From positions 1 through 54,787 of IMG/VR virus record IMGVR_UViG_3300037233_000021: a stretch of 54,787 nucleotides of DNA. One strand, given 5' to 3'. Below the pieces are notes generated by a model, which was given only the letters and a program-made list of their open reading frames with translations, was not told the origin of the DNA and made no database searches. Positions 197 to 49,644 of this stretch are shown here, in pieces. Made by a program: the position numbers and the translations under genes. Each line of letters opens with the position of its first letter. Position 1 is the first letter of the stretch. The DNA is from a virus.

Positions 197-1853
197 AGCG
201 CCGCGCCCTTGCAGCCCGTGCGACAGCCTGCTGTTGCGCTGTTGCTGCTGCTGCCTTTCGCTGCATCAGGTGCTGCTGAAGAGGCGTGACGGTCGCTGAT
301 TGCGGAGTCAATGCTGGTAAGCCTGCCTCTGCTGCTGTAGCTGACGCAGTGTTGTGTCCGCCCGCTGTCGGCAGACCACCGGCCAATGCTGGTACAGCGA
401 CGCCACCGATCTGCTTCAACGTGTTAAGTAGTGATCCAGGACCAGTGCTTGCGCCGCCTAGTCCCAATCCGTTACTGACTCCGCTGGAGAGTGAGCCCAG
501 TGCAGCGCTCGCGCCAGACGATATGCCGCCCTGTATAGCTCCTTGAACTCCACCTGTTACGCCACCCTTCAAGATGGAGGCACCTATCTTCGCGGTCGTT
601 GGGTTGAGTAAGCCGCCAGTCGCATCAGAGATCTCCTGCGCGCCGCCGCTATTCATGTAGCCAGATGTTGCGCCTCCGACTGCGCCAGTGAGAGCGCCAG
701 TCAATGGGTTGCCGCCGCTCAGTTCTGAGCCAGCTGCGCCTTCTCCAGCACCGATGATTGCGCCTCCAGCTGCTGCGCCACCAGCGCCTGTGCCAGCGCC
801 TACAGCAGCGCCGAGGGCTGCAGAAGCTCCGCCAGCTGTGAGGAACATGCCAGCCGCAGAGAGAGCGAACTCACCCAGGCCGATGTTGTCGTTGCGATTC
901 TGCGCCTCGTATGCCTTGTCGTTTGATGCGAATCGCGCGAGGTCAAGCGCTCCGCCTGCTCCAAAGTTTGCGTCAGCGCTAGTTGACGTGTCCTGTCCCC
1001 ACACGGTGCCCATATCTCCGCCAATCTGTCCTTGGCCGTAGGACGCCTGTCCTGCCATCTTCGCGATGTATGGAGCAGCGGCTGCATAGAATGCATCGTA
1101 CTGAGCTTCAGTCTTGACCGCGCCACCGCCGAGACTGGCAATGGTTGCGCCGTGCAACATGTAGTTGAGCCCACCGCTGGCTGCTGCGGTCTGGAACGCC
1201 TGAGTATAGTTTCCTGACTGTAGGCTGCCTGTGATGCTCTTACCAGCAGCTGAGGCATCGAACGCTTGCGCGCCGGGGAGAGCCTTTGCCCAGTTGATTG
1301 TCGCGCCGTTGCTCGGGTTAGTTGGGTCATTGAACGCTTTCGCTGCATTCGCTTCAGTGCCGTTCGACCAAGCACCGCCATTCATGATGCCAGCTGTGGG
1401 TCCTTGCATTGCCTGTAGCGCGCCAGCTGTCTGTGTGGTCATCGCATTGAATACGCCACCGGGGCCAGTCCCGGCGTCCGCGATCAGTGTCTGTGAGGAT
1501 ATAGGAGACGCAGCCTTCGGAGCGATAGTGATACCGAAGCCGTTCGTCTGCGGTGAGTTTTGCACAGCGCGTGAGACATCGATGCCCCAGCTATTCGTCT
1601 GTGGCGCTGGAGTTGCGACCTTTGGAACTGTAGATGCCACAGTCTTGGGCGCTGCCTGCGGCATTGCGACCGCTGCTTTCGGTACTGGAGTCGGCGCGGC
1701 TGGAGCTGGTTCTGATGCTGCCTGAGTAGCTTTTGGCGCGGCAATGACCTCACTGGGCTGAGGCGATGCCTGTGTCTTCACTCCATACGCATCGGTCTCA
1801 GGTGTCAGCGCTCCCTGGCCGAGCGGACCTTGTAACCCTACCAGCGCGACCAT
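189..1853 (-). CDS. Pro/Ala/Gly-rich virion protein, possible internal (ejection) protein
   Basis: 554 residues. A start at 1853 is preferred over one 11 codons upstream because AAGGAGAGGG stands just before it and the ATG overlaps the upstream TAA as TAATG. After a short head comes a Pro/Ala linker (residues about 20-120). The middle third has little recognisable sequence. The C-terminal half has long Gly/Ala-rich, small-residue helices (glycine-zipper-like, about residues 330-500), then a Gln/Ala tail. Such hydrophobic glycine zippers occur in membrane-inserting phage proteins, so a DNA-ejection role is possible. I recognise no named family, and the assignment rests on composition and its place among tail genes. 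Confidence 0.55.
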   Translation of the reverse strand: MVALVGLQGPLGQGALTPETDAYGVKTQASPQPSEVIAAPKATQAASEPAPAAPTPVPKAAVAMPQAAPKTVASTVPKVATPAPQTNSWGIDVSRAVQNSPQTNGFGITIAPKAASPISSQTLIADAGTGPGGVFNAMTTQTAGALQAMQGPTAGIMNGGAWSNGTEANAAKAFNDPTNPSNGATINWAKALPGAQAFDASAAGKSITGSLQSGNYTQAFQTAAASGGLNYMLHGATIASLGGGAVKTEAQYDAFYAAAAPYIAKMAGQASYGQGQIGGDMGTVWGQDTSTSADANFGAGGALDLARFASNDKAYEAQNRNDNIGLGEFALSAAGMFLTAGGASAALGAAVGAGTGAGGAAAGGAIIGAGEGAAGSELSGGNPLTGALTGAVGGATSGYMNSGGAQEISDATGGLLNPTTAKIGASILKGGVTGGVQGAIQGGISSGASAALGSLSSGVSNGLGLGGASTGPGSLLNTLKQIGGVAVPALAGGLPTAGGHNTASATAAEAGLPALTPQSATVTPLQQHLMQRKAAAATAQQQAVARAARARRYA

Positions 1854-2140
1854 TACCCTCTCCTTCTCAGATACTCCTTGCGCCAATTACAGTTATGGCA
1901 GAGCACCTGATAGTTTGCGGGAGAGACCAGACCCTTCACCAGCTGCTGTGCTAGATTCTTGCCGTTTTTTCTCTCGGCAGCGCCATCATCCATCCTGTGG
2001 TCTATCACGAGGATCATTGGGTCATCTATACCACAGTAGGCGCACAGAGCACCCAGGATAGCCAAGGCTGCTTTTCGGATCTTGTCATGGTGCTTCCTAC
2101 CGTGCAGCTGCGAGTAGGCTTTGGTTGGTCTGTAGGTCAT
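1853..2140 (-). CDS. HNH endonuclease, small free-standing
   Basis: 95 residues. The sequence shows a CAYCG knuckle, a central DHRMDDG and a C-terminal NYQVLCHNCN, the ββα-metal core of HNH nucleases with a CxxC...CxxC zinc site. It sits between the fibre gene and the next structural gene and is absent from the logic of the operon, which is typical of a homing endonuclease. Its 3' end supplies the ribosome binding site of the downstream gene, so it is translationally embedded. Confidence 0.85.
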   Translation of the reverse strand: MTYRPTKAYSQLHGRKHHDKIRKAALAILGALCAYCGIDDPMILVIDHRMDDGAAERKNGKNLAQQLVKGLVSPANYQVLCHNCNWRKEYLRRRG

Positions 2141-2142
2141 AT

Positions 2143-3795
2143 TTAACTGACCGTGCCGATAGTGTGCGGCGAGCCGCCTCCAGAGATGACATTGACCGTC
2201 GAGCTATTCTTTGCGATGGCATTGCCAGCTGTGCCAGCTGCGCCGCCAGCGATCTGGAACGTACCGGCAGGGCTGCCACCAGCAGTGCCTGCAGAGCCCC
2301 AGTTGCCACCAGCGCCACCGTCGCCACCGTCCATTCCTGCGCCTGCCTCTGCGCCCGCTCCGCCGACGCCGAAGGCATTGGCTGCAGCTGTCGTGCCTAC
2401 CCGTGAGACCAAGCCGCTGATAGCTGAGTGCGTTCCTGTGTCTGCGTTGATGGCGCGTGCGCCCCTGCCGAAGCGAGGGTTGCCGCCAGCACCGCATCCG
2501 CCGCCGCCCGCATTGGCAACGAGAGATGATGCGCCTGAGTTCGCTGAGCCTACGCCACCGCCGCCACCGCCACCGCCACCGCCCCAGATATAGCCTGCAG
2601 CGTTCGTGACGTTCGTGGTCGTGCCTGAGCCTGAGCACTGGACCGCGATGCCACCGTTGCCACCATCCTGAGCGTCTTCGCCAGTCTGGTCTCCGCCGCT
2701 GCCAGTCATGATCTGCCAGCCACCGTCGCCGCCATAGCCGCCAGCGCCCTGGATATATCCCAGGTTGATGAGGTTGATGACTGAGCCGGATGGCATGCCG
2801 CTCAAGTCCATCGCGGGCAGTAGTGGCGTGAGCGAGGATACGATTGCGCCGCGCCCGACTGTGATCGTGACGTTCACCGGCGATGAGACTGTGCCGCCCA
2901 TCTGAGCAAGCAGGTTGAAGCTGTATGTGTTCTGCTCGATGTTGATCGCAAACGCTGCAGATGCCGAGTTATAGCCTGTGGTCGGAACCTTGCATATCCA
3001 GCTGGTGAAGTGCGAGCTGTACACCATGTTGATGACTGTTACGCCATTGGCGGACGTGTCAACAGTGTTGCTGCCGTTCGGGAAGGCGAATACCGCGTTC
3101 CACGATGTTATATGCCCGCCGCCTGAGTCCTGCGCGAGGATGAGCGTGATGGACTGGCCGTCGATTGGATTGGTCGGTACACCCAGCGTGAGGTTGCCGG
3201 TGAGTACAATGTACTGGCTATTACCGTTCGCAGCGTTGAGCGCGACTGAGCCCGCGTAGGTCTCAACGAAGAACGGGCTCGACATCTGGTTATAGAACTC
3301 AGCGGCTGGAGCTGTCCCCGGCGTGTCAGCGTTCACGCTTGTGTCGAGCCGAGCGTAGAAGGCTGCTACTATACCGCCCAAGGTCGATGCATCGCCGCTC
3401 GCGGAGTAGACGTTATTTGAGCCGTCGCAGTAGCAAAGGGCCACGCCGCCCTGGGGGAGTACAAGAGCAGTTGAAGGTGAGGCAGTCTGCACTGTCACAG
3501 TGAATGCGCCGGATGTGGCGTTATTGAATAGATATACCTTGTTCTCATTAGGGATGACGATAATGACATCGCCCGAGAGAGTGCCGTTGAACTGTATGAC
3601 CGCGTTTCGCGCCTGATTGCTCGCGCCGTTAGTAGTGCTCAGCGTGATTGTACCAGTGCTGATCGTCACAGCGAGATAGCCTGCAATCGCCTGCTCGATC
3701 AGTCCGAATACCACGTTCGCGACGTCGCCCCATGTGTTCGGGTTCGAGCCGTCATCCTGGAGCGTGAGACCTAATGCTGGTGAATATGTGACCAT
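2143..3795 (-). CDS. Tail fibre-like protein with polyglycine C-terminal domain
   Basis: 550 residues. The N-terminal third (with a motif TWGDVANVVFGLIEQAIAGY) resembles the virion-proximal part of phage fibres that carry short β-rich repeats. The middle is Thr/Ser/Val-rich and β-like. From about residue 355 the protein becomes very glycine-rich, with GGYGGDGG, a run of ten or so glycines near residue 405, and further Gly-Ala clusters to the end. Polyglycine sandwiches of this sort form the receptor-reading tips of some phage adhesins (for example T-even gp38 and S16 gp38). Receptor recognition is inferred; no chaperone or tailspike enzyme motif is visible. Confidence 0.7.
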   Translation of the reverse strand: MVTYSPALGLTLQDDGSNPNTWGDVANVVFGLIEQAIAGYLAVTISTGTITLSTTNGASNQARNAVIQFNGTLSGDVIIVIPNENKVYLFNNATSGAFTVTVQTASPSTALVLPQGGVALCYCDGSNNVYSASGDASTLGGIVAAFYARLDTSVNADTPGTAPAAEFYNQMSSPFFVETYAGSVALNAANGNSQYIVLTGNLTLGVPTNPIDGQSITLILAQDSGGGHITSWNAVFAFPNGSNTVDTSANGVTVINMVYSSHFTSWICKVPTTGYNSASAAFAINIEQNTYSFNLLAQMGGTVSSPVNVTITVGRGAIVSSLTPLLPAMDLSGMPSGSVINLINLGYIQGAGGYGGDGGWQIMTGSGGDQTGEDAQDGGNGGIAVQCSGSGTTTNVTNAAGYIWGGGGGGGGGGVGSANSGASSLVANAGGGGCGAGGNPRFGRGARAINADTGTHSAISGLVSRVGTTAAANAFGVGGAGAEAGAGMDGGDGGAGGNWGSAGTAGGSPAGTFQIAGGAAGTAGNAIAKNSSTVNVISGGGSPHTIGTVS

Positions 3796-3799
3796 CTAC

Positions 3800-4495
3800 C
3801 TATTCCTGTGCCGGGTTCTGACCGGGTGTTTTGCCGTCTGGCATCTCAAGACCGTTGCCCTTGAGCGCCTGTAAGTCTGTTCTGCGGTACGCGCGCAAGC
3901 GCACCTTCTCGCCTTCGAGCTTCGTCATGTATTCCTGCATCGCCGCGTTGAGACGCGCTGAGTTCTTCAAGAGCAGCGACACTTCGATGATCATCGCCAG
4001 GAACAGAAGCTCCTGTGTCTCAGTGCTGAGCCACGTAGCCGTAGAGCCATCATTCAATGACGTAGGCTCGTATGGACCCCAGCTGCGGATCGTGTACGTG
4101 ATGTCAGGATATGGAGCGAACATCCAGTTCGATGCGTCCACTTCCGCGAAGTACTTGGGCGGGCCGACGTTGGCCGGGTTCAAGTAGTCGTGCAGCCACG
4201 CCTTATCCCGGCGCACACACGGCATCCACTGCAGTGCATTGAGCCAGCCGACCTCGTCTGTGACGATGAGGCCAGTAGGTCGCGCCACGATGGTTGTAGT
4301 CGTCGAGGCTGCTAGCGAGCTGGCAGACGACACGGTGTCGAAGATCGTGAGGTCTAAGTCTATTGTAACCCGCTTCTCAGCTAGGTAGACCAGCTGCGGA
4401 AGCACCGTCGAGTTCACCCAGTCGGCGTCCGTGTCATCGAGCCACGTCTGCACAGCGTTCGTGAGGGTCGTGTATGTCCATGCTAAGCCGGTCAT
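3800..4495 (-). CDS. Head-tail adaptor-like protein
   Basis: 231 residues. The N-terminus (a DDTDADWVNSTVLPQLVYLA helix leading into EKRVTIDLD) matches the pattern of the phage adaptor family, whose members begin with a helical segment of the form FI-LAE-RI-RDL. The rest is helix- and strand-mixed, ending in a Lys/Glu helix and a polar tail. It precedes the fibre gene in the operon, with only 4 nt between them. An adaptor or connector role in the neck of a short-tailed virion is inferred from motif and position. Confidence 0.6.
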   Translation of the reverse strand: MTGLAWTYTTLTNAVQTWLDDTDADWVNSTVLPQLVYLAEKRVTIDLDLTIFDTVSSASSLAASTTTTIVARPTGLIVTDEVGWLNALQWMPCVRRDKAWLHDYLNPANVGPPKYFAEVDASNWMFAPYPDITYTIRSWGPYEPTSLNDGSTATWLSTETQELLFLAMIIEVSLLLKNSARLNAAMQEYMTKLEGEKVRLRAYRRTDLQALKGNGLEMPDGKTPGQNPAQE

Positions 4496-4496
4496 G

Positions 4497-5414
4497 CTAT
4501 GCCACCGTCACGTTGTAGACGCCGAGATTGGCGAATGGTGATGCGTGCGCTAGATTCCACTTCCAGGTTGCCCCCAGTCCGAAGGTCGTATAGGAAGCAG
4601 CCGAACTGAGCACCAGGACTGCGTTGCTGTTCTGGTCGGTGAACGAGAGGCTCGTGAAGAGCGCCTTTGGAGGGTACACGCCAGCGAGCTTGTTGATTGT
4701 GATGTTCAGTACTGACGGCGAGCCGGTGTCATCCGAAAACAGGGTGCCGACCGTGTGCCCGACAATCGTCGCCGGTACGAGTGAGCCGTAGCCGTCCACG
4801 AAGCCATAGTACGGGTCGAAGATGACAAAGCCAGCAGTCAACACCAATGGCGGCTGCGTGACATTGACGATGTTCGATGGAGGCGAGAGCGTCAAGCCGC
4901 TGTTCTGCCCCCACCATATGCCGGTGACGTAGTAGTTCGAGCCTGACACCCAGCTGGTGTCTGTGTACGTGAGCCCAGATACGACTGGGACTGTGCCCTC
5001 CTCGCGGCCTATCAAGTCCGGCAGCTGCACGAAGATATCGACAGGGATGATCGGATTGACCGTCGCGATTCGGATGTAGCCCATGCCTGGGAGCTGCCGC
5101 CACACATACCAGTTCTTGAGGGTGCCCCAGGGAGTGTCCTGCTGCGTCCAGTTGAGCACCGCATGCGAGCCGCTGAGTGAGCCAGTGAGCACCGGCGAGT
5201 AAGGCATGGGCTGCACGTTGTCAGGGCGAGGCTTGTAGATCGCAATACCCTCTTCAGGGTCGAACGGCTCCTCTTGCTGCTGCGGACCGTCATACCACTC
5301 AGGGTGCACCATCATGCCGCGCAGGTAGCCGTCCTCGATCATATCGGCGCGCAGCATCTTCTGTCCGCTGCGGTCGCAGATAGCTATTGCATTTTTGTCG
5401 CGTGCGTATGCCAT
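4497..5414 (-). CDS. Virion protein with degenerate N-terminal zinc knuckle and FN3-like domain
   Basis: 305 residues. It starts KNAIAICDRSG. In many podoviruses the equivalent protein begins with an AICDRCG zinc knuckle and a CP-CW pair, but here the second cysteine and the later pair have been lost. Residues about 75-180 have fibronectin type III hallmarks: VLNW, a WYVWRQLPG strand, IRIATV, then LTYTDTSWVSGSNYYVTGI. The C-terminal 110 residues are β-rich. The start overlaps the upstream stop (TAATG at 5412-5416). It probably decorates the tail or neck. Confidence 0.6.
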   Translation of the reverse strand: MAYARDKNAIAICDRSGQKMLRADMIEDGYLRGMMVHPEWYDGPQQQEEPFDPEEGIAIYKPRPDNVQPMPYSPVLTGSLSGSHAVLNWTQQDTPWGTLKNWYVWRQLPGMGYIRIATVNPIIPVDIFVQLPDLIGREEGTVPVVSGLTYTDTSWVSGSNYYVTGIWWGQNSGLTLSPPSNIVNVTQPPLVLTAGFVIFDPYYGFVDGYGSLVPATIVGHTVGTLFSDDTGSPSVLNITINKLAGVYPPKALFTSLSFTDQNSNAVLVLSSAASYTTFGLGATWKWNLAHASPFANLGVYNVTVA

Positions 5415-6118
5415 TACCGGAAGCCCCAGCCGTTCGTGCGGTGCCGGATGCGCGTGTTGGCCTTCTCGCGCGTCGAGTCCATCGCCACCTTGAACACCAT
5501 CTCAGCTTCTGCCTTCAGCGCCTCATAGCGCTCGGGTCGCCACTTCTGTGAGAACTTGGCCGCGATGCCAGCTGCTGCCGCCTCGTACCAAGCGTAGGGA
5601 ATGAAGAGCACGTTGTTCGCAGCGCCTGCATCCTGAGCACGGTTGAACACGCTGGCGTTCCAGATGTCCGTGCTGTTCTGCGACGCCTGCCATAGGTAGA
5701 CGACCGGAGATCCGTTGTTGTTGTCAGTCTGATGATTGACCCAGAACATGGTAGGACGCCCTTGCTGCGTCTTGTTCGGGATCGCCTCGTAGTCGGTACG
5801 GGCAATGGGATACATCTCAACGTCGTACCCATCCCGCGTGAGATAGGCGTGAAACACGTCGATGGCCGGGTTGATGAGAGGGATCTGGATCTGTCCCTGC
5901 GCGAGCGTGACGCTATAGGTCGTCATCCAGGGCTGCTTGAAGCCGCGTGACGTCCAGTAGGCGAACATGAAGTTGATCGAGCGTCGCACGGATGTGATGT
6001 GCTCGGAGTCCATGCTCGCCGGGTTTATACCGCAGCGTTCAACAGCCTCTGATACCAGCTCTGCAACTTCGGGAGCGAAGCCATAAGTACCACTAACGGT
6101 CGGGGTAGTCGCTGCCAC
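5414..6118 (-). CDS. Podovirus-type tail or adaptor protein
   Basis: 234 residues. The N-terminal helix (VAELVSEAVERCGINPASM) is followed by HITSVRRSINFMFAYWTSRG. The central LTRDGYDVEMYPIARTDYEAIPNKTQQGRPT has the conserved order 'RDG-D-PI-RI-DY-IPNK-QGRPT' of a widespread podovirus virion protein family annotated as tail or adaptor components. The C-terminus has the usual YEALKAEAEM helix. Family membership looks good; the precise position in the neck is not known. Confidence 0.7.
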   Translation of the reverse strand: MAATTPTVSGTYGFAPEVAELVSEAVERCGINPASMDSEHITSVRRSINFMFAYWTSRGFKQPWMTTYSVTLAQGQIQIPLINPAIDVFHAYLTRDGYDVEMYPIARTDYEAIPNKTQQGRPTMFWVNHQTDNNNGSPVVYLWQASQNSTDIWNASVFNRAQDAGAANNVLFIPYAWYEAAAAGIAAKFSQKWRPERYEALKAEAEMVFKVAMDSTREKANTRIRHRTNGWGFR

Positions 6119-9354: not shown

Positions 9355-9383
9355 TTGACACGACTCCCGAGAGCGCGTATAAT
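9355..9383 (+). promoter_or_regulatory. Early promoter 2, perfect sigma70 consensus
   Basis: TTGACA at 9355-9360, exactly 17 bases, then TATAAT at 9378-9383: a full consensus match on both boxes. It starts directly after the stop of the previous gene and is followed by TGGAGG and the ATG at 9407. It should be one of the strongest promoters in the window. Confidence 0.92.
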
Positions 9384-13535: not shown

Positions 13536-13621
13536 GCATTGCGCGATGTCGCGCAGCCCAGCCGGGTCCGCTCCTACCCCGCTGGAAGACTTAGGCCCTG
13601 GTCACTCCGGGGCATTTTTTT
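13536..13621 (+). ncRNA. Candidate small structured RNA of about 85 nt
   Basis: Between a promoter-like element and a terminator lie three consecutive stems: TGCGCG-ATGT-CGCGCA (13540-13555), CCAGC-c-GGGT with ACCC-c-GCTGG and an 8-base loop (13558-13585), and the terminator stem (13595-13613). The transcript would hold no ribosome site or reading frame. It may be a regulatory RNA, or only the end of the early mRNA. No Rfam family is recognised. Confidence 0.5.
13595..13621 (+). terminator. Rho-independent terminator of the early cassette
   Basis: GCCCTGG / CCGGGGC stem (13595-13601 with 13607-13613, one G-U pair), loop TCACT, then A and seven Ts. It sits at the meeting point of the rightward early genes and the leftward accessory block. 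Confidence 0.9.
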
Positions 13622-13679
13622 ATCTCACCACAATCACGATGATGATGATGAGTAAGATGAGTCCGATACTGATGCCCAT
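13620..13679 (-). CDS. Tiny single-span membrane peptide, 19 residues
   Basis: The frame is almost nothing but a hydrophobic stretch (GISIGLILLIIIIVIVV) with a final Arg. The stop overlaps the T-run of the opposing terminator. It directly follows another small membrane gene. Expression is uncertain. Confidence 0.4.
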   Translation of the reverse strand: MGISIGLILLIIIIVIVVR

Positions 13680-13680
13680 A

Positions 13681-13842
13681 TTAGTGCGTGCCGTGAAAGG
13701 CTCCAATTCCAACCAGCCAAGCCAGTATCAAGAATGAGAAGGATGCCGTCATCCAGTTTATGCTCCACGTTGCGGGAGGCTTGATCGAGATGATCATGCA
13801 CACCAGCGCCAGGATCAGACAAATCCAGTGAGCGTCAATCAT
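13681..13842 (-). CDS. Two-span membrane protein, 53 residues
   Basis: Start at 13842, in a TAATG overlap with the upstream gene. Two hydrophobic segments (HWICLILALVCMIISI and FSFLILAWLVGIGAF) are separated by a short polar loop: a holin-like size and shape, though the canonical lysis cassette is elsewhere (47240-48959). It could be an accessory membrane protein of the exported block. Confidence 0.6.
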   Translation of the reverse strand: MIDAHWICLILALVCMIISIKPPATWSINWMTASFSFLILAWLVGIGAFHGTH

Positions 13843-14132
13843 TAGCGCCGATCCCCATGACTGTGTCCGCCGCGATGCCAGCCACCATGACCACGGTCGC
13901 CGTGATTCCAGTGACCATGCCCGTAGCCGCCGTGACCGTAGCCGTACCACTCTCGATCCCATCCGTTACCAGTCCAGTAGCCGCAGTCTCCATTGTAGAA
14001 ACCGACCGGGCCAACATACACACCGCACGGCAGTCCCAGGTCGATACCAACACTGACGTCTGCTACCGCAGGAGCCGCGAGGAATCCAGCAGACAGAGTC
14101 AGACCAACGAGCATAGCGAAAAAACTTTTCAT
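13842..14132 (-). CDS. Exported His/Gly-rich protein, 96 residues
   Basis: Start at 14132 with AGGTGG upstream; a longer frame to 14189 lacks a signal. A Sec signal peptide (MKSFFAMLVGLTLSAGFLAA, cut after about PAVA) leads to a short mature domain with two cysteines (GLPCGVY and NGDCGYW). The tail of about 35 residues is made of Gly-His-Tyr-Trp repeats such as YGHGGYGHGHWNHGD. Periplasmic metal binding is plausible from composition. Phage function unknown. Confidence 0.75.
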   Translation of the reverse strand: MKSFFAMLVGLTLSAGFLAAPAVADVSVGIDLGLPCGVYVGPVGFYNGDCGYWTGNGWDREWYGYGHGGYGHGHWNHGDRGHGGWHRGGHSHGDRR

Positions 14133-14133
14133 G

Positions 14134-14358
14134 TTACACCACCTTTGATGCTGCGACTGCCGCGAGGACTGCTGCCGGTGAGGCAACAACTGGGGCCGCA
14201 GGTACGTGAGCTGCTACGACTGCCGGAGCGAACTTCGTCACGACAGAGTTGAGGTCCGCCTGGGCAGATGCGAGCTGCTTATGCAGCCAAGTGTACCCAA
14301 CGGTTGCGCCGACGACGGAACCAACGACGAAAGATACTATGACAGAAATTAAATCCAT
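14134..14358 (-). CDS. Membrane-anchored Ala/Val-rich small protein, 74 residues
   Basis: An N-terminal transmembrane segment (LISVIVSFVVGSVVGATVGY) is followed by a short coiled part and a Pro/Ala/Val tail. The stop is directly before the next gene. Probably an inner-membrane tether; unknown role. Confidence 0.65.
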   Translation of the reverse strand: MDLISVIVSFVVGSVVGATVGYTWLHKQLASAQADLNSVVTKFAPAVVAAHVPAAPVVASPAAVLAAVAASKVV

Positions 14359-14369
14359 AGGTGCCTCTA

Positions 14370-15089
14370 TTATTTACTCAGCTGCTTCACGAGCTGACGC
14401 TGTTCGATGTCGATCATCTCTTTGTGCGTGACGAAGTCACCAGTTGGGACCGCCACCACGTCTGGAACTACACACATGTCTTCGAGTGCCTGCCCACAGT
14501 TGTCGCCTAGAGTTTTCTTCACGAACGAGATGTCGCACGCTACTGACTGGGCAGCCAGAGGAGCATTTGACTCGCAGAAGAATTTGACTAGTTCGAGCTT
14601 CGCGCAGTCATCGTCCTTCCTGGACTTGCCGAACGATCCGCCCGCGATCAGGAGCTGTAGGCCAGCGCCGTCCGTGAACCGGCAAGACGCTGTCGTCTGA
14701 CCGTAACCTGCGATGGCCGTCATGGCGAGCCGAGGGGACGTGAAGTTCGAGCCAGTCTGGGTCACGCCGTTGTTGACCGCTGAGCCGCCTTTGCCGCCTT
14801 CAGCGACTGCCTTAGCATCGCCACCTGTACCACCCTGAGCTACACCACCCTGAGCTACAGAGCTAGACTGCGCTGCGCCGCCCTGGATGACTGCGCCGTT
14901 ACCTGATCCCAGGCCATTGACCGTGGTCGTGCTGGTGCTGGTGCTGGTAGCTGTATTGTTGTTGCCAAACACGTTGCCGCTCGCGACGTTTCCGGTGCCG
15001 GTGTTGTCCAGCGTTGGAGGAACCTGTGCGAAGGCTGACCCAGCGCACAAGAGAACTAATGCAGCGGCTATTCTGACAGTGTTTTTCAT
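14370..15089 (-). CDS. Exported protein with Gly/Asn/Thr repeat region and Cys-rich C-domain
   Basis: 239 residues. The start at 15089 gives a clear Sec signal (VRIAAALVLLCAGSAFAQ) with GAGGT upstream; a longer frame to 15143 has none. Residues about 20-110 are low complexity, with NNNTATSTSTST, then repeats of AQGG, GGDAKAVAEGGKGG. The C-domain has several cysteines (ASCRF, DDDCAKLELVKFFCE, VACDI, NCGQAL, DMCVV) that probably pair outside the cytoplasm. From memory, similar exported proteins with a DCA motif occur in other environmental phages. Role unknown; an envelope or surface role is likely. Confidence 0.7.
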   Translation of the reverse strand: MKNTVRIAAALVLLCAGSAFAQVPPTLDNTGTGNVASGNVFGNNNTATSTSTSTTTVNGLGSGNGAVIQGGAAQSSSVAQGGVAQGGTGGDAKAVAEGGKGGSAVNNGVTQTGSNFTSPRLAMTAIAGYGQTTASCRFTDGAGLQLLIAGGSFGKSRKDDDCAKLELVKFFCESNAPLAAQSVACDISFVKKTLGDNCGQALEDMCVVPDVVAVPTGDFVTHKEMIDIEQRQLVKQLSK

Positions 15090-15186
15090 TAATGTGTACC
15101 TCTCAACCAGTATGCGCTGATTGGTCTGTGGTTTACCGCACATAGCTGCAGGCCACTGATATTACTCAAACCTTAGTTGAAACTCA

Positions 15187-15651
15187 CTACACCACGGCCT
15201 TACAAACGGCAGGGGTTAGAGCGCTTTCGACGCCCAGAGAGTTGAAGGAGACCATCGCGATGCAGTGATTGCCCAGCGGGATATCGGTGAACTCGTAGAG
15301 GAGCTGGCCGAGCCCAAGGGATACCACGGTGACGGAGTCGAGATAAATCCTCACCCCGGCGAGGTTCGCGAGTGCCGAGCCGTCCGTGTTCATAGTTGGG
15401 TCCGCCCAGGCTACCGTCATGACGCCGGTCGTAGGCGCGGGCAGGGTGACTACAGGAGGGATGACGACAATGGGAACAACGACCGGAGGGATGACTACTG
15501 GTGGGATGACCACAGGAGGCACGATAACAGGCGGAAGGATAACGTGCGGGGGCGATGTTACGACCGGAGGGGCAGGCGTGGCTGGAGTGCTTGAGCCTCC
15601 ACATCCGGTGAGTACCAGGATAGTAGCCGTGCACGGCACGAACCAACGCAC
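15187..15651 (-). CDS. Lipoprotein with PV-rich stalk and FN3-like domain
   Basis: 154 residues. The N-terminus FVPCTATILVLTGCGG has a lipobox (LTGC), so lipidation and envelope anchoring are expected. Residues about 30-65 repeat PPVV/PPVI, a rigid stalk. The rest (MTVAWADP, LAGVRIYLDS, LLYEFTDIPLGNHCIAMVSF) resembles a fibronectin type III fold. The start is GTG. Might be superinfection-excluding or host-surface modifying; unlike an o-spanin it has a globular end domain. Confidence 0.7.
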   Translation of the reverse strand: MRWFVPCTATILVLTGCGGSSTPATPAPPVVTSPPHVILPPVIVPPVVIPPVVIPPVVVPIVVIPPVVTLPAPTTGVMTVAWADPTMNTDGSALANLAGVRIYLDSVTVVSLGLGQLLYEFTDIPLGNHCIAMVSFNSLGVESALTPAVCKAVV

Positions 15652-15652
15652 G

Positions 15653-15703
15653 TTACCAGCCGCTCGTATCCGCCGCCAGAAACCCGTCAGCGCCCTTGCG
15701 CAT
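15653..15703 (-). CDS. Possible leader peptide, 16 residues
   Basis: ATG at 15703 in a TAATG overlap with the upstream gene, ending one base before the GTG of the lipoprotein. It fills the gap exactly and may only couple translation. Confidence 0.3.
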   Translation of the reverse strand: MRKGADGFLAADTSGW

Positions 15704-15912
15704 TACCGCTTGTCAGCTGATTGGTAATCGAGGATCTCGGAGCCACTGGTGCCCTTCTTGCCCTTGCCGCCGCCAGCGCGCGCTTCCGCCGCCGCCGAAC
15801 CTTCACCGCTGTACGACTTGCCGCCGCTCACCGAGCTGGCAGGCTTGACGCCGTTCTTGGCAGCACCGGCTGTGTTGCCGCGCCGCTCGTCTTTCATTGC
15901 TCTACCGGACAT
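15703..15912 (-). CDS. Small Gly/Lys/Ser-rich protein, 69 residues
   Basis: A disordered, basic, low-complexity protein (KSYSGEGSAAAEARAGGGKG). AAGGAG precedes the ATG by eight bases, which supports the start. No family recognised. Confidence 0.6.
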   Translation of the reverse strand: MSGRAMKDERRGNTAGAAKNGVKPASSVSGGKSYSGEGSAAAEARAGGGKGKKGTSGSEILDYQSADKR

Positions 15913-16010
15913 GTGTGATGGCTCCTTGGTTGATCCTTATTCTAACACGCCCAGGAAGCCCCAGGCGCGGCGTACCCAGGTTGGGAGCGATCACCCCCAG
16001 CCAGGGAGCG

Positions 16011-16103
16011 CTAAGCCCCTGGGTAGAGCTGTGCCTTCCATCCTGCCTCGATCTCATCGAGCTTCTGGCGCAGGTATCGCAGCGCACCAGGGTCGCGGAT
16101 CAC
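16011..16103 (-). CDS. Small protein, 30 residues, GTG start
   Basis: GTG in a GTGA overlap with the preceding gene. The product (VIRDPGALRYLRQKLDEIEA with a GWKAQLYPGA end) is a single amphipathic helix with natural codon use. The overlap argues for coupled translation. Unknown role. Confidence 0.5.
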   Translation of the reverse strand: MIRDPGALRYLRQKLDEIEAGWKAQLYPGA

Positions 16104-16219
16104 AAGCACCACTTCACTTCCTTGTGCTCAGCCCAGTCCTGAATCGTAATGGTTGATTCATCCCATCGAGGGGTAACGGTGACGCCACCGATGGCCGCTC
16201 TGAGTCTACGTGTTCTCAT
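16100..16219 (-). CDS. Small protein, 39 residues
   Basis: Starts inside the previous gene (14-base overlap) and ends in a GTGA overlap. Sequence TRRLRAAIGGVTVTPRWDES, then a β/helix ending HKEVKWCL. Probable; function unknown. Confidence 0.5.
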   Translation of the reverse strand: MRTRRLRAAIGGVTVTPRWDESTITIQDWAEHKEVKWCL

Positions 16220-16460
16220 GTGCAAGGTACTCCTTTTCGAGCGCAAGGATGCGCTCCGCGAATTTACCCTTCCCGTACTTGTGCCCGCCGCGATCCTCTA
16301 TGCCAGCGTTGTAGCTGCGCAGCGCGGTCAGCTCTGCAGCCCGCTCCACCAGGGTAGCCAGGATGACTGGGGGCCGACCTACCAGGACTGGGCGCGCGCG
16401 GACGCCGACGTCCTGGGTATGGTGCTGGTCTGTGTCTTTGATTCTGGTGCGTTTAGCCAT
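16206..16460 (-). CDS. Basic protein, 84 residues, unknown
   Basis: Start at 16460 (AGAGGATGT just upstream), overlapping the previous stop. Basic head (AKRTRIKDTDQ), then a helix (PVILATLVERAAELTALRSY) and another (GKFAERILALEKEYLAH). Could bind DNA. Not recognised. Confidence 0.6.
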   Translation of the reverse strand: MAKRTRIKDTDQHHTQDVGVRARPVLVGRPPVILATLVERAAELTALRSYNAGIEDRGGHKYGKGKFAERILALEKEYLAHENT

Positions 16461-16749
16461 ACATCCTCTCAAGTAACCCGGCGCGAAAAGCGGGGTGCCG
16501 GATGGGGGTCATGTGTTTAGCGGTGGCTCCTCGCCGACGCCGCGCGTTCCTCACCTGTCCATGCCGAGCTGCCCACCGGGCGTATGCAGCCCTGAACTGC
16601 TCCGGCTTCAGCTTGCGCTGTACCGCCATCTGAGCGTTGCGCCTCGCGCGGTACGCTGGGGTGCTGCGGTATTTGCGCTGAGCCCTCAAGCGCCTGAGAG
16701 GATGCGCGGCGCGGTAGCGCGCGTCCCTGGCAGCCCTATTTCTGGTCAC
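16453..16749 (-). CDS. Arg/Ala-rich basic protein, 98 residues
   Basis: About a third of residues are Arg or Lys (RAARDARYRAAHPLRRLRAQ and RKYRSTPAYRARRNAQ). The repeated RYRAAHP/RRNAQ pattern resembles the basic helical leader of some HNH enzymes, but no HNH core follows. Probably nucleic-acid binding. The start follows no strong ribosome site. Confidence 0.55.
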   Translation of the reverse strand: MTRNRAARDARYRAAHPLRRLRAQRKYRSTPAYRARRNAQMAVQRKLKPEQFRAAYARWAARHGQVRNARRRRGATAKHMTPIRHPAFRAGLLERMYG

Positions 16750-16825
16750 GTAGACGCTCCTCCATTGTCCGCGGACGTATACGTGTCTGTCACCACCTGT
16801 ATAGAAAAGGGCCTTTTTCTATCCA

Positions 16826-17065
16826 TTATCGAGCCAACTCAATCAGTAAGGCGTCGGCGAGAGTCACGGCAGCTGCAGCGAACTTGAGTGGTGCGTCGCG
16901 CGCAGCTGCATCTGCCAAGAGCCCGATCAGAGCTTGACCAGCGATCCACTCACGCTTGGACATGAGGTTAACAGGCAAGTTGCCGTTGTCGGACCCCTGG
17001 TCAGAGAGATCTTCATCTTCATTGCGTTTGCGTAGAGCTGCCTGAGATTCAGTTATGGATGTCAT
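16826..17065 (-). CDS. Protein of 79 residues, unknown
   Basis: ATGA-coupled to the gene before it. An acidic polar head, then KREWIAGQALIGLLADAAAR and an Ala/Leu helix to the end. The MSKREWIAGQALIGLLA segment resembles small phage proteins with a conserved REWFAGQAL motif; function unknown in those as well. Confidence 0.6.
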   Translation of the reverse strand: MTSITESQAALRKRNEDEDLSDQGSDNGNLPVNLMSKREWIAGQALIGLLADAAARDAPLKFAAAAVTLADALLIELAR

Positions 17066-17202
17066 TTCTTCACTACCTTTGCGCCATTGCGCCAGCCGGG
17101 TTGCTCACGTTTGATTGCGGCGAGTTCCTTCGCCTCGTAGCGCTGGCCTCCTAGCTTCCAGCGGCCAACAGTCGTCTTGGGTTTGGTATCACGGTCTATC
17201 AT
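17062..17202 (-). CDS. Small basic protein, 46 residues
   Basis: Overlaps both neighbours (ATGA downstream, four bases upstream), with GGAGGAGAC before the start. Sequence IDRDTKPKTTVGRWKLGGQR, a helix and a Lys end (KVVKK). The GRWKLGGQRYEAKELAAIKR part looks like a short β-hairpin plus helix. Unknown. Confidence 0.6.
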   Translation of the reverse strand: MIDRDTKPKTTVGRWKLGGQRYEAKELAAIKREQPGWRNGAKVVKK

Positions 17203-17684
17203 GACGATGTCTCCTCCATAAAGTCTTGCGGCTGCTCGTGCACATACCGAACCTTCGCGGTGCAGGTAGCTGTATCGAAGTCACGCGGTTCGAGCATGGA
17301 AGGATCTGGGCTGTCAAGCCGCGCACCTTGGCGCATCGACCAGTCTACCGGCAGCGGCCCTGGGCGTCCCAGCACACCATCCCACTCGTCTGCGTACTGG
17401 TGATCGGCGTCAGCAGGATGCTTGCCGCGATCCGCGCAGTTCGACATCTGACACGTCGGCTTCATCCAATGCGTCTTGATGCCGCGAGCCCAGCTGGCGG
17501 TGTACAGGACGCACAGCGCAATGATGCCCCACTGGGAATGCTCGATGGCAGTCCATAACCAGAACGGCTCGCTGGCGAGGCCGAAGATGGGTGCCCACTT
17601 AGGTGCTCGCCCCATCGCCAGCCAGATAGCTATCACGCCGGGGACGCAGATGCCGAGTTGCTGAAACCAGTGCAGATAGTTCAT
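17199..17684 (-). CDS. Membrane protein with cytoplasmic tail, 161 residues
   Basis: Start at 17684 in an ATGA overlap. Three hydrophobic segments fall within residues about 8-70 (GICVPGVIAIWLAM, PFWLWTAIEH, GIIALCVLYTASWARGI). The FGLASEPFWLWTAIEHSQWG motif occurs in small phage inner-membrane proteins. The last 90 residues are polar and acidic, ending EETSS. Role unknown. Confidence 0.65.
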   Translation of the reverse strand: MNYLHWFQQLGICVPGVIAIWLAMGRAPKWAPIFGLASEPFWLWTAIEHSQWGIIALCVLYTASWARGIKTHWMKPTCQMSNCADRGKHPADADHQYADEWDGVLGRPGPLPVDWSMRQGARLDSPDPSMLEPRDFDTATCTAKVRYVHEQPQDFMEETSS

Positions 17685-17803
17685 AGGTGGTACACCATAA
17701 ATACCGCTATCGCGACCGGGATCAATGCGGGCCATCGCATGCAGACCCCGATCATCCCAGGAGATGATGCGAGGTTTGTGACTACATCGAGGAACATCTT
17801 CAT
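17681..17803 (-). CDS. Small single-span membrane protein, 40 residues
   Basis: Start at 17803, directly after the stop of the upstream gene. The tail (RWPALIPVAIAVFMVYHL) is shared in outline with the end of the preceding gene product, suggesting tandem duplication. Orientation probably N-in. Confidence 0.55.
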   Translation of the reverse strand: MKMFLDVVTNLASSPGMIGVCMRWPALIPVAIAVFMVYHL

Positions 17804-17804
17804 G

Positions 17805-17912
17805 CTAGACCCTGAAGGCTGTGTAACACGCGCCACCGACAGCAATGACGGCGGCGAGTATCGGCCAGCGAAGGACGACGTTGACGATGAACGAGTTGAG
17901 CGGAAGGTACAT
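17805..17912 (-). CDS. Small single-span membrane protein, 35 residues
   Basis: Sequence MYLPLNSFIVNVVLRWPILA then VIAVGGACYTAFRV: one span with the RWP-L--V-IAV pattern repeated in the following gene. AAGGGGA lies upstream. It follows the exported barrel-like gene with a few bases of overlap. Confidence 0.55.
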   Translation of the reverse strand: MYLPLNSFIVNVVLRWPILAAVIAVGGACYTAFRV

Positions 17913-17913
17913 C

Positions 17914-18384
17914 TCAATTCCCCTTGAGGTTCCAGCCAACCCAGTAGCTAATGTACGCCTGCATGCCGAAGCCATTCATGCCTGGAGTTGAGCCGGTCAC
18001 TACGGAGCGTCCGTCCCATCCGTCACCCCAATGGTGCTCGTCCACTGCCTCAACACCTACGGTCACGATACCGTTACTGAAGTGCCGGTCGATGCGCGCG
18101 CCGAACGCCGGGATCACCTTGTCGTTGTACGACAGATGGTTTCGGTCGTCGCTGAGAGTGACGCTGCCATACGTGTCGAACGTGAAGTTATGGACCTTGA
18201 ACCAGTCAATGCCCTGGGTGATCTTGCCGATGTACAGCACGTTGCCAGTCTCGGGCGTGTTCTGCATCACGCTACTCGGAGCGATCACAGCACCCCAACT
18301 CGAACCTGGGTATGCGAGAGGGCCGTCAGCGAACGCAGCAGACGAGGCGAGGATCGCTACGACTGCAAAAGCTATCTGTTTCAT
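17914..18384 (-). CDS. Exported β-strand-rich protein next to glycosyltransferase
   Basis: 156 residues. The start at 18384 gives a Sec signal (KQIAFAVVAILASSAAFADG). The mature part alternates polar and aromatic/hydrophobic residues in strand-like runs (NFTFDTYGSVTLSDD, VIPAFGARIDRHFSNGIVTV, GMQAYISYWVGWNLKGN), suggesting a β-barrel or sandwich at the outer membrane. It is the immediate neighbour of the glycosyltransferase (18398-19468), 13 bases downstream, so the two may act together. A weak likeness to the C-terminal domain of N4-adsorption protein NfrA is possible but unproven. Confidence 0.6.
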   Translation of the reverse strand: MKQIAFAVVAILASSAAFADGPLAYPGSSWGAVIAPSSVMQNTPETGNVLYIGKITQGIDWFKVHNFTFDTYGSVTLSDDRNHLSYNDKVIPAFGARIDRHFSNGIVTVGVEAVDEHHWGDGWDGRSVVTGSTPGMNGFGMQAYISYWVGWNLKGN

Positions 18385-18397
18385 GAACATCATTTCC

Positions 18398-19468
18398 TTA
18401 AGTTGATGGGACAATTGAATCGAAATTATAGCGCTGAACCTTATTCCATGTCAAGATGGTTTTGCGGAGCAGGATGATCTCTACAAAGCTTCTCAGGAAC
18501 GCGAACGTGTTCAGGTAAGACAGCCAGTAAAACACCGGAACTTTGCACAGCACATCCCATCGCTTGGTCTTGAGCGCGATCATCACGCCGACGCCCAGGT
18601 AGCACGCCAGATCAACCAAGACGCCCAGCGCTACCCACTTGATGGGGAACGCCCAGCAGAGAAGTGGCAGCGTAAAGAAACGATTGAGCAGCAAGGTGTC
18701 TAGCACGAGGTACATCATGTACCAGTCCACTGGGCGCTTGGGCGCTAGAGAAAACGTCTTGTGCTTGAGGACAATCTGCCAGAAGCCACGGTTCCACCGC
18801 ATGTTCTGCTTCATGAAGTCCTCGAACGTGCTCGGGTCTTGAGTGATGACCCCTGCCCCGTGGATATACTTGATCTTGCCCTGCATGCGATGCACCTGGA
18901 GGGTGAGGTCCATATCTTCAGCGAGCGTGCCCGCATCGATGTTCAGCTTCATCAGCTCTGACAGCCGGTACATCGAGGCACAGCCCGGTGAGACCGTGAT
19001 CATGTTGAAGTTGGCCTGCCCGCCCTTGATGACCTCGTGCGAGAAGGTGTACTCATACGCCCGCAGAGCGCCCCAGATGTGGTTGCTCTTGGCAGACTTC
19101 ACCTGACCGATGAGCAGCGCGGCGTCAGGGTTCTGCTCTGCCGCCTCATACATGACGTTGAGAAACTGCGACTCCACCTGGGAGTCCGCGTCCACGAACA
19201 CCACCCACTGGTAGCGGTCCTGAAGCCTGAAGTGTGCCAGCCCGTAGTTCTGAGCGTGCGCTTTGCATCCGCCCTTCTCGGGCACGGTGTAGACGGTGAC
19301 GCCCTTGGCGCGCGCGAGCGCCGCCGTAGCATCTGACGACATGTCGTCCACAACGTAGATGTCGCTGCGATTGAAGCCTGCAGCACGCAGGGATGCTATC
19401 GTGCCTTCAATGACCCGCTCTTCGTTGAACGCGGGAATAAGCACGCAGATCTTGGGCTCGGGTGTCAT
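18398..19468 (-). CDS. Processive-type family 2 glycosyltransferase, membrane-bound
   Basis: 356 residues. The GT-A fold of GT2 enzymes is clear: ICVLIPAFNEERVIEGTIAS at the nucleotide site, DDMSSDAT, the DAD metal motif (93-95), AEDMD (183-187), and QNMRW (221-225), the Q/RxxRW signature of processive synthases such as PgaC/IcaA, NodC, cellulose and hyaluronan synthases. Three hydrophobic segments follow (about 251-275, 278-300, 310-335), which could form the export channel; the N-terminal spans of PgaC are missing. It probably polymerises a sugar on the inner membrane. No good ribosome site is visible before 19468. Product sugar unknown. Confidence 0.85.
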   Translation of the reverse strand: MTPEPKICVLIPAFNEERVIEGTIASLRAAGFNRSDIYVVDDMSSDATAALARAKGVTVYTVPEKGGCKAHAQNYGLAHFRLQDRYQWVVFVDADSQVESQFLNVMYEAAEQNPDAALLIGQVKSAKSNHIWGALRAYEYTFSHEVIKGGQANFNMITVSPGCASMYRLSELMKLNIDAGTLAEDMDLTLQVHRMQGKIKYIHGAGVITQDPSTFEDFMKQNMRWNRGFWQIVLKHKTFSLAPKRPVDWYMMYLVLDTLLLNRFFTLPLLCWAFPIKWVALGVLVDLACYLGVGVMIALKTKRWDVLCKVPVFYWLSYLNTFAFLRSFVEIILLRKTILTWNKVQRYNFDSIVPST

Positions 19469-19495
19469 GCCAGGAGTGTAGCACAAAAGGTTCGG

Positions 19496-19567
19496 TGCCG
19501 GGTCTCTGAATCGAACAGAGGAATGGCAGTTTACAAAACTGCTGCTGTGCCACTGAGCCAACCCGGC
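19496..19567 (-). tRNA. tRNA-Thr (TGT), first copy
   Basis: Acceptor GCCGGGT/ACCCGGC, anticodon stem GCAGT around loop TTTGTAA (anticodon TGT), T-arm CTCTG-TTCGATT-CAGAG, discriminator A. The 3' CCA is not encoded (CCG follows). Reads ACA. Confidence 0.92.
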
Positions 19568-19571
19568 GAGA

Positions 19572-19597
19572 TGGAGCGGAGCCGGGGCCAGCCCCGC
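19572..19597 (-). pseudogene. Internally deleted tRNA-Gly remnant
   Basis: 26 nt. The first 11 nt (GCGGGGCTGGC) equal the 5' end of the intact tRNA-Gly at 20155-20228, and the rest (CCCGGCTCCGCTCCA) equals its 3' end except for one base. About 48 nt including the anticodon arm are missing. It cannot be functional. Confidence 0.75.
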
Positions 19598-19645
19598 TTG
19601 TTCAGCTACCGGCGCTGTTCACGTTACATGAACGGAGCCAGAAAA

Positions 19646-19720
19646 TGGCTCCGAGAGATGGGATCGAACCACCGACCACGCCATTAACAGGGGCGCGCTC
19701 TACCGCTGAGCTATCCCGGA
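19646..19720 (-). tRNA. tRNA-Asn (GTT)
   Basis: Acceptor TCCGGGA/TCTCGGA (one G-U), anticodon loop CTGTTAA (GTT), with one mismatch at the base of the anticodon stem, T-loop TTCGATC, and encoded GCCA end. Reads AAC/AAT. Confidence 0.9.
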
Positions 19721-19905
19721 ATGTACTTAAGACTCGGCGCGCGCACAGGTGTTGGCCGCTCTACAACACTTCGGACGCCATGCGCGAACCGTCCCGGAGT
19801 TGAGGTCCGCCCTATCTCGCCGCACAGGCGATGGGCTCCTTGGCCCAGGCAGGCTTACTTATTTCAGCCCGCTCAATGCGCAACGCCAACCGTCTCCCGG
19901 CGAAC
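19721..19905. other. Gap inside the tRNA array, degenerate tRNA-like stems
   Basis: About 185 bases with no complete tRNA on either strand. Short hairpins exist (TGGGC-TCCTTG-GCCCA at about 19833, GTGTTG/CAACAC near 19750), but none makes a cloverleaf. Probably decayed tRNA or other RNA genes. Confidence 0.4.
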
Positions 19906-19980
19906 TGGTGGACCGCCTCGGACTCAAACCGAGCAGGCTAACTCCGTGCAAGGGAATTCCGGGTACTCTGCCCGCAGCCC
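19906..19980 (-). tRNA. tRNA-Ala (TGC), divergent D-arm
   Basis: Acceptor GGGCTGC/GCGGTCC pairs throughout, with G-T at pair 3, the G3-U70 identity element of alanine tRNA. Anticodon arm ATTCC-CTTGCAC-GGAGT, T-arm CTCGG-TTTGAGT-CCGAG, encoded ACCA. The D-arm (about GGG-CAGAGTA-CCC) lacks U8, A14 and the G18G19 pair, and C56 of the T-loop is replaced by T. Confidence 0.6.
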
Positions 19981-19998
19981 AGTGCGTCTATCATATCA

Positions 19999-20072
19999 TG
20001 GCGGGCCGGTAAGGACTCGAACCTTAATGAACGGTTTTGGAGACCGTGATCCTACTATTGGATTACCAACCC
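19999..20072 (-). tRNA. tRNA-Trp (CCA)
   Basis: Acceptor GGGTTGG/CCGGCCC (two G-U), anticodon arm ACGGT-CTCCAAA-ACCGT (anticodon CCA), T-arm TAAGG-TTCGAGT-CCTTA, encoded GCCA. Confidence 0.92.
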
Positions 20073-20074
20073 GG

Positions 20075-20146
20075 TGCCGTGTCTCTGAATCGAACAGAGG
20101 AATGGCGGCTTACAAAACCACTGCTGTACCACTGAGCCAACACGGC
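20075..20146 (-). tRNA. tRNA-Thr (TGT), second copy
   Basis: Acceptor GCCGTGT/ACACGGC, anticodon loop TTTGTAA (TGT), T-arm identical to the first copy. CCA not encoded. The pair differ mainly in compensatory acceptor and anticodon-stem changes. Confidence 0.92.
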
Positions 20147-20154
20147 GAAAAAAG

Positions 20155-20228
20155 TGGAGCGGAGCCAGGGAATCGAACCCTGATACCCAGTTTGGAAGAC
20201 TGATGCACTGCCAATATGCCAGCCCCGC
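20155..20228 (-). tRNA. tRNA-Gly (TCC)
   Basis: Acceptor GCGGGGC/GCTCCGC (one G-U), anticodon loop CTTCCAA (TCC), T-arm CAGGG-TTCGATT-CCCTG, encoded TCCA. Reads GGA. The parent of the remnant at 19572. Confidence 0.92.
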
Positions 20229-20240
20229 TCGCGAACAAAA

Positions 20241-20318
20241 TGGTCTGTCGGGAAGGATTTGAACCTTCGACCCTCCGGTTCCAGACCGGATACTCTAACC
20301 AGACTGAGCTACCAACAG
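20241..20318 (-). tRNA. tRNA-Pro (TGG)
   Basis: Acceptor CTGTTGG/CCGACAG with C1-G72, the hallmark of proline tRNA. Anticodon stem TCCGG/CCGGA around TCTGGAA (anticodon TGG; position 33 is C, not the usual T). T-arm GAAGG-TTCAAAT-CCTTC, encoded ACCA. Confidence 0.85.
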
Positions 20319-49303: not shown

Positions 49304-49644
49304 AAATGTGTATCCTCTAGTCGTTTGCGAACTGCGTCTTTTTCGGTGCTCAGAGCTACCCTCACATCCTTAGCCTCAGTCCTGGCGTCGTCCTTCGATG
49401 CAAGCATGAGTGTCATGATCTCACGGTGACTGGCGTGCATCTGCTCGCCAACCACTTCGATTTTATCATACAGCCTGGACACGTCAGACCGAGTGGCCTG
49501 CGTGGTTTCAAGCGCAGTCAAGCGTGTGATGGTTGCGAGATGGTTCTCCTTGTCAGCCTGAATGTGCCCACGGCCCAGCCATGCCACAACCGTTACCGCG
49601 ACCATCCAGCCCTTAGTTGTCAAACTGTTGAAATCGAAATCCAT
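49300..49644 (-). CDS. Membrane protein with coiled coil, 114 residues
   Basis: ATG at 49644 is seven bases from GAGG. Span (KGWMVAVTVVAWLGRG) then a long charged coiled coil (VVGEQMHASHREIMTLMLAS, ALSTEKDAVRKRLEDTHL). Twin of the next gene in layout. Unknown. Confidence 0.55.
   Translation of the reverse strand: MDFDFNSLTTKGWMVAVTVVAWLGRGHIQADKENHLATITRLTALETTQATRSDVSRLYDKIEVVGEQMHASHREIMTLMLASKDDARTEAKDVRVALSTEKDAVRKRLEDTHL

Follow-up and report, generated by a model that had tools for sequence, protein, structure and literature searches.

Several bacterial systems, among them Pga, Bcs and NfrAB, combine a polysaccharide synthase with an outer-membrane exit protein, and this is the arrangement that we propose for a gene cassette found in the IMG/VR virus record IMGVR_UViG_3300037233_000021 (54,787 nucleotides, analyzed at full length and hereinafter called the window). 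The core of this cassette consists of the genes for a family 2 glycosyltransferase (GT2; the protein itself is denoted GT below) and a small exported protein (Exp). The Pga/Ica system (PgaABCD) resembles the cassette in possessing a PgaC-like GT2, a small membrane partner and an outer-membrane exit, which in the cassette is predicted; a PgaB-like deacetylase is encoded in the fuller cassettes, and one cassette includes an acyltransferase 3 gene, as in ica loci. Unlike Pga/Ica, the cassette is phage-borne, its GT lacks N-terminal helices, a tiny, unrelated Exp stands where Pga has PgaA, with its TPR domain and 16-strand barrel, YkuD is added, and the scores fall under the family cut-offs. NfrAB likewise has a two-gene core, an inner-membrane GT2 and an outer-membrane exit protein, and its surface glycan is tied to phage adsorption, the exopolysaccharide serving phage N4 as a receptor (PMC8669472). 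However, the NfrAB genes belong to the host, Exp is unrelated (hhalign) to NfrA, in which TPRs are combined with a 16-strand barrel, and NfrB is not matched when a profile of six cassette GTs is compared with E. coli proteins.

Viruses, too, encode enzymes of this kind. The GtrABC systems for O-antigen conversion include a phage-borne GT2 that alters the cell surface; in contrast to them, the cassette shows no flippase or third Gtr gene in the gene lists read, and has a QxxRW motif and an outer-membrane-like partner. The hyaluronan synthase (HAS) of chlorovirus PBCV-1 is likewise encoded by a virus, belongs to the same superfamily of processive GT2 enzymes and ranks first for the cassette GT when its profile is compared with PDB structures, but PBCV-1 is a virus of eukaryotic algae that encodes a single synthase together with precursor genes and no outer-membrane partner. 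PBCV-1 hyaluronan coats infected cells, and its purpose is debated, the suggestions being exclusion of other viruses, clumping and avoidance of grazers (PMC5408694). By analogy, the cassette described here is best read as a bacteriophage counterpart of the chlorovirus synthase. In the open-access literature on phage-encoded polysaccharide synthases and deacetylases, we found no description of a GT-Exp cassette.

A conserved cassette on unrelated phage backbones

The cassette genes of the window are the following.

18398..19468, minus strand: GT, a GT2 processive polysaccharide synthase of 356 amino acids with a PgaC/HAS-like catalytic domain (Pfam, NCBIfam, PDB profile, motifs)
17914..18384, minus strand: Exp, 156 amino acids, with a Sec-type N-terminus (signal peptide) and six predicted antiparallel strands, outer-membrane-barrel-like (AlphaFold2, Foldseek, VIA)
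17805..17912, minus strand: TM1, a conserved one-helix protein of 35 amino acids (read from the sequence; hidden Markov model (HMM) match 6.7e-5)
17681..17803, minus strand: TM2, a second one-helix protein of 40 amino acids (HMM match 4.9e-11 with a model that included TM2 itself; homolog in contig L004, 1.9e-16)

Searches with GT and with Exp as starting points together yield 21 IMG/VR contigs, which represent 15 distinct cassettes once the near-identical ones are collapsed. The GT and Exp genes occur together on every related contig that is long enough, on backbones ranging from 49 kb to 358 kb, and are direct neighbors in 13 of the 15 distinct cassettes. In the remaining two (L034 and L038), about 1.9 kb lies between them, containing a NodB-type deacetylase gene in both and, in L034, also an acyltransferase gene (Pfam). 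The original prediction, made from the sequence of the window, had called for an examination of the co-occurrence of Exp and GT, and the two are indeed found together in all 20 records where both places are visible (the window and the 21 contigs, excluding L018 and L027, which end before the GT). Three contigs, L028, L031 and L033, were found via GT alone, yet carry Exp, TM and YkuD genes; because only GT led to them, their Exp genes constitute an independent test.

The Exp gene lies 13 nucleotides beyond the GT gene, and TM1 starts 1 nucleotide past the Exp stop codon in the window, L004 and L003, homologs of TM1 directly following Exp in the latter two contigs. TM1 proteins share the motif N-x4-N-x2-M/L-R-W/F-P. 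TM2, which has M-R-W-P in common with TM1, is likely a duplicate of the latter and was not seen in L003 or in distant cassettes.

The backbones that carry the cassette differ. Between L003 and the window, GT is 76% and Exp 63% identical, and the flanking genes are quite different. Within the stretches compared, the major capsid protein, portal and primase of the window were not found near other cassettes, and for its large terminase subunit a single match (26% identity) was obtained among the 21 contigs. The 358, 336, 122 and 49 kb contigs are recognizable as phages by their own terminases. Sequence comparison thus indicates that the cassette moves between phages. The ratio of nonsynonymous to synonymous substitution rates (dN/dS) is about 0.09-0.15 for GT, 0.18-0.31 for Exp and 0.25-0.43 for the 35-residue TM1, that is, well under 1 throughout, so all three genes are held by selection; given this purifying selection and the adjacency of the genes in all but two distinct relatives, GT, Exp and TM are more than chance neighbors. 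The conserved phage cassette is built around the GT-Exp pair, and the rest of the gene island in which it is embedded in the window falls outside the cassette.

The glycosyltransferase

The catalytic motifs of the window GT (DD, DAD, TLAEDMD and QNMRW) are invariant in the alignment of its relatives. Of the 16 GTs checked, every one has DxD and QxxRW, and that of L025 alone lacks TLAED. This combination of a GT2 domain with DxD, TED-like and QxxRW motifs is that of processive polysaccharide synthases, and, at the level of motifs, the description of the GT as processive in the original prediction is borne out (Pfam Glyco_tranf_2_3, E-value 3.8e-24). The best NCBIfam model is TIGR03937, PgaC_IcaA (8.6e-25). 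With the profile of six GTs as the query, the first match in the PDB is the Chlorella virus HAS (2.7e-12), followed by a HAS1 and BcsA, and the matches in E. coli are PgaC (5.5e-29) and BcsA (1.6e-15).

The exported protein

No significant match to Exp was found in Pfam, PHROGs or NCBIfam. No relatives were found in 50,697 deposited phage records, whether the window protein or its relative from L009 is used as the query, and none was confirmed in two short-motif pattern scans of GTDB genomes, which distant host homologs could escape; in IMG/VR, relatives are found down to 27% identity. The AlphaFold2 model reaches a pLDDT of 80.2 with 16 relatives aligned, compared to 31 with 3 sequences, and consists of a signal helix and six antiparallel strands, five of which are 12-15 residues long. 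The top Foldseek match of this model in the PDB is the cellulose export channel BcsC (E-value 0.2, probability 0.95), and barrels dominate the VIA-align list, with OmpA at Z 10.1 (r.m.s. deviation 3.8 over 108), NspA at 9.0 and PagL at 8.9; the viral Foldseek library yielded no match with an E-value below 0.001. With its Sec signal and long antiparallel amphipathic strands, the modeled Exp has the features of the outer-membrane beta-protein fold class. Judging from the model, Exp is an outer-membrane-type beta protein, and the structural matches do not specify its function. Matches of Exp to Vibrio plasmids (E-value 0.2) correspond to a lytic transglycosylase and were taken as chance.

Companion genes in fuller cassettes

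A gene for a YkuD L,D-transpeptidase-like protein is present in 11 of the 15 distinct cassettes. The Pfam match exceeds the cut-off for the L011 protein only; the catalytic His and the TxGC (S/T-x-G-C) motif are invariant in the 11 copies. PgaB/NodB-type deacetylases are encoded in 8 of the 15, with the TFDDG and H-S/T-x-x-H motifs intact in most copies; for the L009 deacetylase, the best NCBIfam model is PgaB, with a score below the PgaB cut-off. In L009, L015 and L034, genes for GH16-like enzymes come next. The envelope or capsule function originally envisaged is upheld in part: as a function around a polysaccharide synthase, it is in keeping with the genes for deacetylase, YkuD, acyltransferase and GH16 proteins that lie beside the pair in other contigs.

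The same short YkuD-like protein (phrog_38499) is found in cultured Xanthomonas, Stenotrophomonas and Erwinia phages, where it is 36-55% identical to the cassette YkuD. In five cultured Xanthomonas/Stenotrophomonas phages (L054, L055, L056, L057 and L058), its gene comes directly after that of a protein of 390-530 amino acids, which in the three cases that were read (L054, L055 and L058) is exported and rich in Asn, Ser and Gly. Unlike the cassettes, the cultured phages that carry YkuD have no gene annotated as a GT in the stretches read. The pair of a YkuD-like and an exported protein in the Xanthomonas/Stenotrophomonas phages has the appearance of another envelope module based on YkuD, distinct from the cassette. 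Because the family occurs in cultured phages, YkuD has a polymer-independent role.

Proposed function and alternatives

Taking together homology, motif integrity, purifying selection, conserved gene order and occurrence on unrelated backbones, we consider it probable that GT, Exp and the one-helix protein form the center of a mobile cassette by which phages produce a surface polysaccharide and export it during infection. Under this model, the GT, located at the inner membrane, would polymerize a UDP-sugar of the host, most likely UDP-GlcNAc; the one-helix protein would assist the synthase, in the place that PgaD has in E. coli; and Exp, probably as an oligomer, would form the outer-membrane exit, as PgaA, BcsC or NfrA do in bacteria. 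In the fuller cassettes, the PgaB/NodB-type deacetylase, acyltransferase, GH16-like enzyme and YkuD-like protein would act on the polymer, either modifying it or anchoring it to the wall. The infected cell would thereby acquire a coat that would alter adsorption of other phages, clumping or grazing, and surface masking or superinfection exclusion would be a plausible purpose. The biofilm effects named in the original prediction are, like superinfection exclusion, speculative. Our claim is that the cassette would work like the PgaC, PgaA, BcsC and NfrA systems; when membership in these families was tested, the cassette proteins fell outside them. A more ambitious version, which strikes us as possible but doubtful, is that phages have themselves evolved a mobile and self-sufficient exopolysaccharide machine, with a helix-poor processive synthase, a virus-only outer-membrane pore made of six-stranded copies and, in the fuller versions, a YkuD that ties the coat to the wall, so that infected cells are sealed against phages or glued to fresh hosts.

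Several observations weigh against a polymer-exporting cassette. The GT scores 87.5 bits against the TIGR03937 equivalog cut-off of 422.3, which places it outside the PgaC/IcaA family, and with a score so far under the cut-off, any assignment of the product sugar is tentative. PgaC has two N-terminal helices that are missing from the GT, whose hydrophobic helices are all C-terminal, and a simple hydropathy scan passes just 1-4 C-terminal hydrophobic stretches per protein; a translocation channel within one polypeptide is therefore hypothetical. For Exp, the Foldseek matches have weak E-values, and known monomeric pores have more than six strands. Homology of Exp to the NfrA, BcsC and PgaA barrels was considered and rejected, with hhalign probabilities below 1% and no support from Pfam or PDB profiles; at 156 amino acids and six strands, Exp does not have the TPR domain and 16-strand barrel that define those proteins. 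Most YkuD copies have no signal peptide, and the window itself contains neither YkuD nor NodB, hence no PgaB-type deacetylase such as that of the Pga operon. Finally, the 3' end of the GT gene of the window includes a promoter-like element about 40 nucleotides before the Exp ATG:

18425..18454, minus strand: perfect sigma-70 consensus, TTGACA-N18-TATAAT

Since this match lies inside the GT gene ahead of Exp, it could drive Exp without GT, and Exp may sometimes be made alone. It is specific to the window, being absent from L004 and L003. A second perfect match, TTGACA-N17-TATAAT, is located at 9355-9383 on the plus strand of the window, and none of 100 shuffles of the window contains any.

An unlikely alternative is that the GT, like GtrB, adds single sugars to a lipid carrier and thereby modifies the host O-antigen, with Exp acting as a receptor-blocking outer-membrane protein, so that superinfection is excluded and no new polymer is made. 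The best PHROGs match of the GT is indeed to the GtrB-like phrog_841 (8.4e-9), a match confined to the N-terminal 112 residues, and Exp resembles the small barrels OmpA, NspA and PagL; however, all 16 GTs have QxxRW, the gene lists that were read include no GtrA flippase or GtrC-like partner beside the cassettes, and polysaccharide deacetylases recur instead. To our knowledge, GtrB-type enzymes lack QxxRW.

We also find it rather improbable that the target is the peptidoglycan or the envelope at large, with GT, YkuD and NodB acting on the wall by GlcNAc addition, crosslinking and deacetylation, and toughening the cell or blocking injection by other phages. The retention of His and TxGC in 11 of 11 YkuD copies is consistent with this possibility, as are the activity of same-fold deacetylases on peptidoglycan (PdaA and PgdA models are listed) and the occurrence of the same YkuD, with no annotated GT, beside exported Asn/Ser/Gly-rich proteins in the cultured phages. 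Nevertheless, the constant core is a processive membrane GT with an outer-membrane-like protein, whereas YkuD and NodB are absent not only from the window but also from the stretches of L003 and L004 that were examined. A chance gathering of unrelated late morons beside tRNA genes, suggested by the conservation of most of the island in L004 alone and by the tRNA arrays that flank several cassettes, is highly improbable overall and is refuted for GT, Exp and TM1 because their order is kept on unrelated backbones, that of L003 included, although it stands for the other island genes.

The wider island and its genomic setting

Apart from the cassette, the island (13.6-19.5 kb, all genes on the minus strand) and the stretch just upstream of it include the following genes.

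15187-15651, minus strand: lipoprotein, lipobox LTGC followed by a Pro/Val-rich stalk
14370-15143, minus strand: Sec-type exported protein, Ser/Thr/Asn-rich, signal counted from an internal Met, MKNTVRIAAALVLLCAGSAFA
13842-14189, minus strand: Sec-type exported protein, signal counted from internal MKSFFAMLVGLTLSAGFLAAPAVA
14134-14358, minus strand: small hydrophobic protein, 74 amino acids (sequence)
13681-13842, minus strand: small hydrophobic protein, from an internal Met, two helices judged by eye
13620-13712, minus strand: small hydrophobic protein, 30 amino acids, KD19 maximum 2.99
19494..20318, minus strand: six tRNA genes directly upstream of the cassette, which are context and not part of it

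The original prediction correctly described exported, lipidated and membrane proteins beside a GT, in one direction: there are three Sec-type proteins including Exp, one lipoprotein, several hydrophobic proteins under 80 residues and the GT2. The FN3-like domain that it assigned to the lipoprotein finds no Pfam support at E-values of up to 1. Its proposal that the 6-kb island is one system is not supported, since the lipoprotein, the 257- and 115-residue exported proteins, the 74-residue protein and a membrane protein of 161 amino acids are found again in a single close relative, L004, and accompany none of the other cassettes. L004 has a recognizable counterpart of each listed small hydrophobic protein except 13620-13712. 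Exported Ser/Thr/Asn-rich proteins with a Cys-containing tail are located near the cassette in three phages (window 14370-15143, L010 9962-10639 and L015 1750-2562) and match phrog_20531, weakly in the case of the window protein.

Among the genes of the window are those for the head, portal, terminase and primase-helicase of a tailed phage. Roseobacter phages CRP-901/902 and Planktothrix phage Pag-Yong1 have capsid proteins that share about 50% identity with the one encoded in the window; the regions that were read in the cultured capsid relatives (Roseobacter CRP-902, Planktothrix Pag-Yong1 and Alcaligenes QDWS535) contain no annotated GT. The locus is bordered by the six tRNA genes and head genes on one side and by plus-strand genes ending at about 13.5 kb on the other. 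A protein of 1672 amino acids with an LPD38 polyvalent-protein domain (49644-54662, minus strand; Pfam 2.5e-31) is probably an internal or injected virion protein.

Genes for tRNAs are also found upstream of the cassette in L004, L026, L035 and L040. In L040, a 122 kb phage, an array of 25 tRNAs (236-4921) directly upstream of the cassette is followed by an exported protein of the Gcw_chp family (4967-5743). Two tRNAs with a CTA anticodon, labeled tRNA-Pyl by ARAGORN, are located upstream of the cassettes of L034 (2130-2297) and L038 (2409-2882), contigs of 358 kb and 108 kb from one sample, and reassignment of TAG is possible in these phages.

Implications

The cassette is common to many unrelated uncultured phages, very large ones included, and brings to light two protein families unmatched in the libraries searched, the exported six-strand protein and its one-helix partner. 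The predicted outer-membrane exit would be far smaller than PgaA, BcsC or NfrA. Engineering of chlorovirus PBCV-1 has not been possible (PMC5408694). The cassette, a compact set of tailed-phage genes apparently parallel in purpose to hyaluronan synthesis by PBCV-1, would make the question of viral sugar coats testable in bacteria, where genetics is easy.

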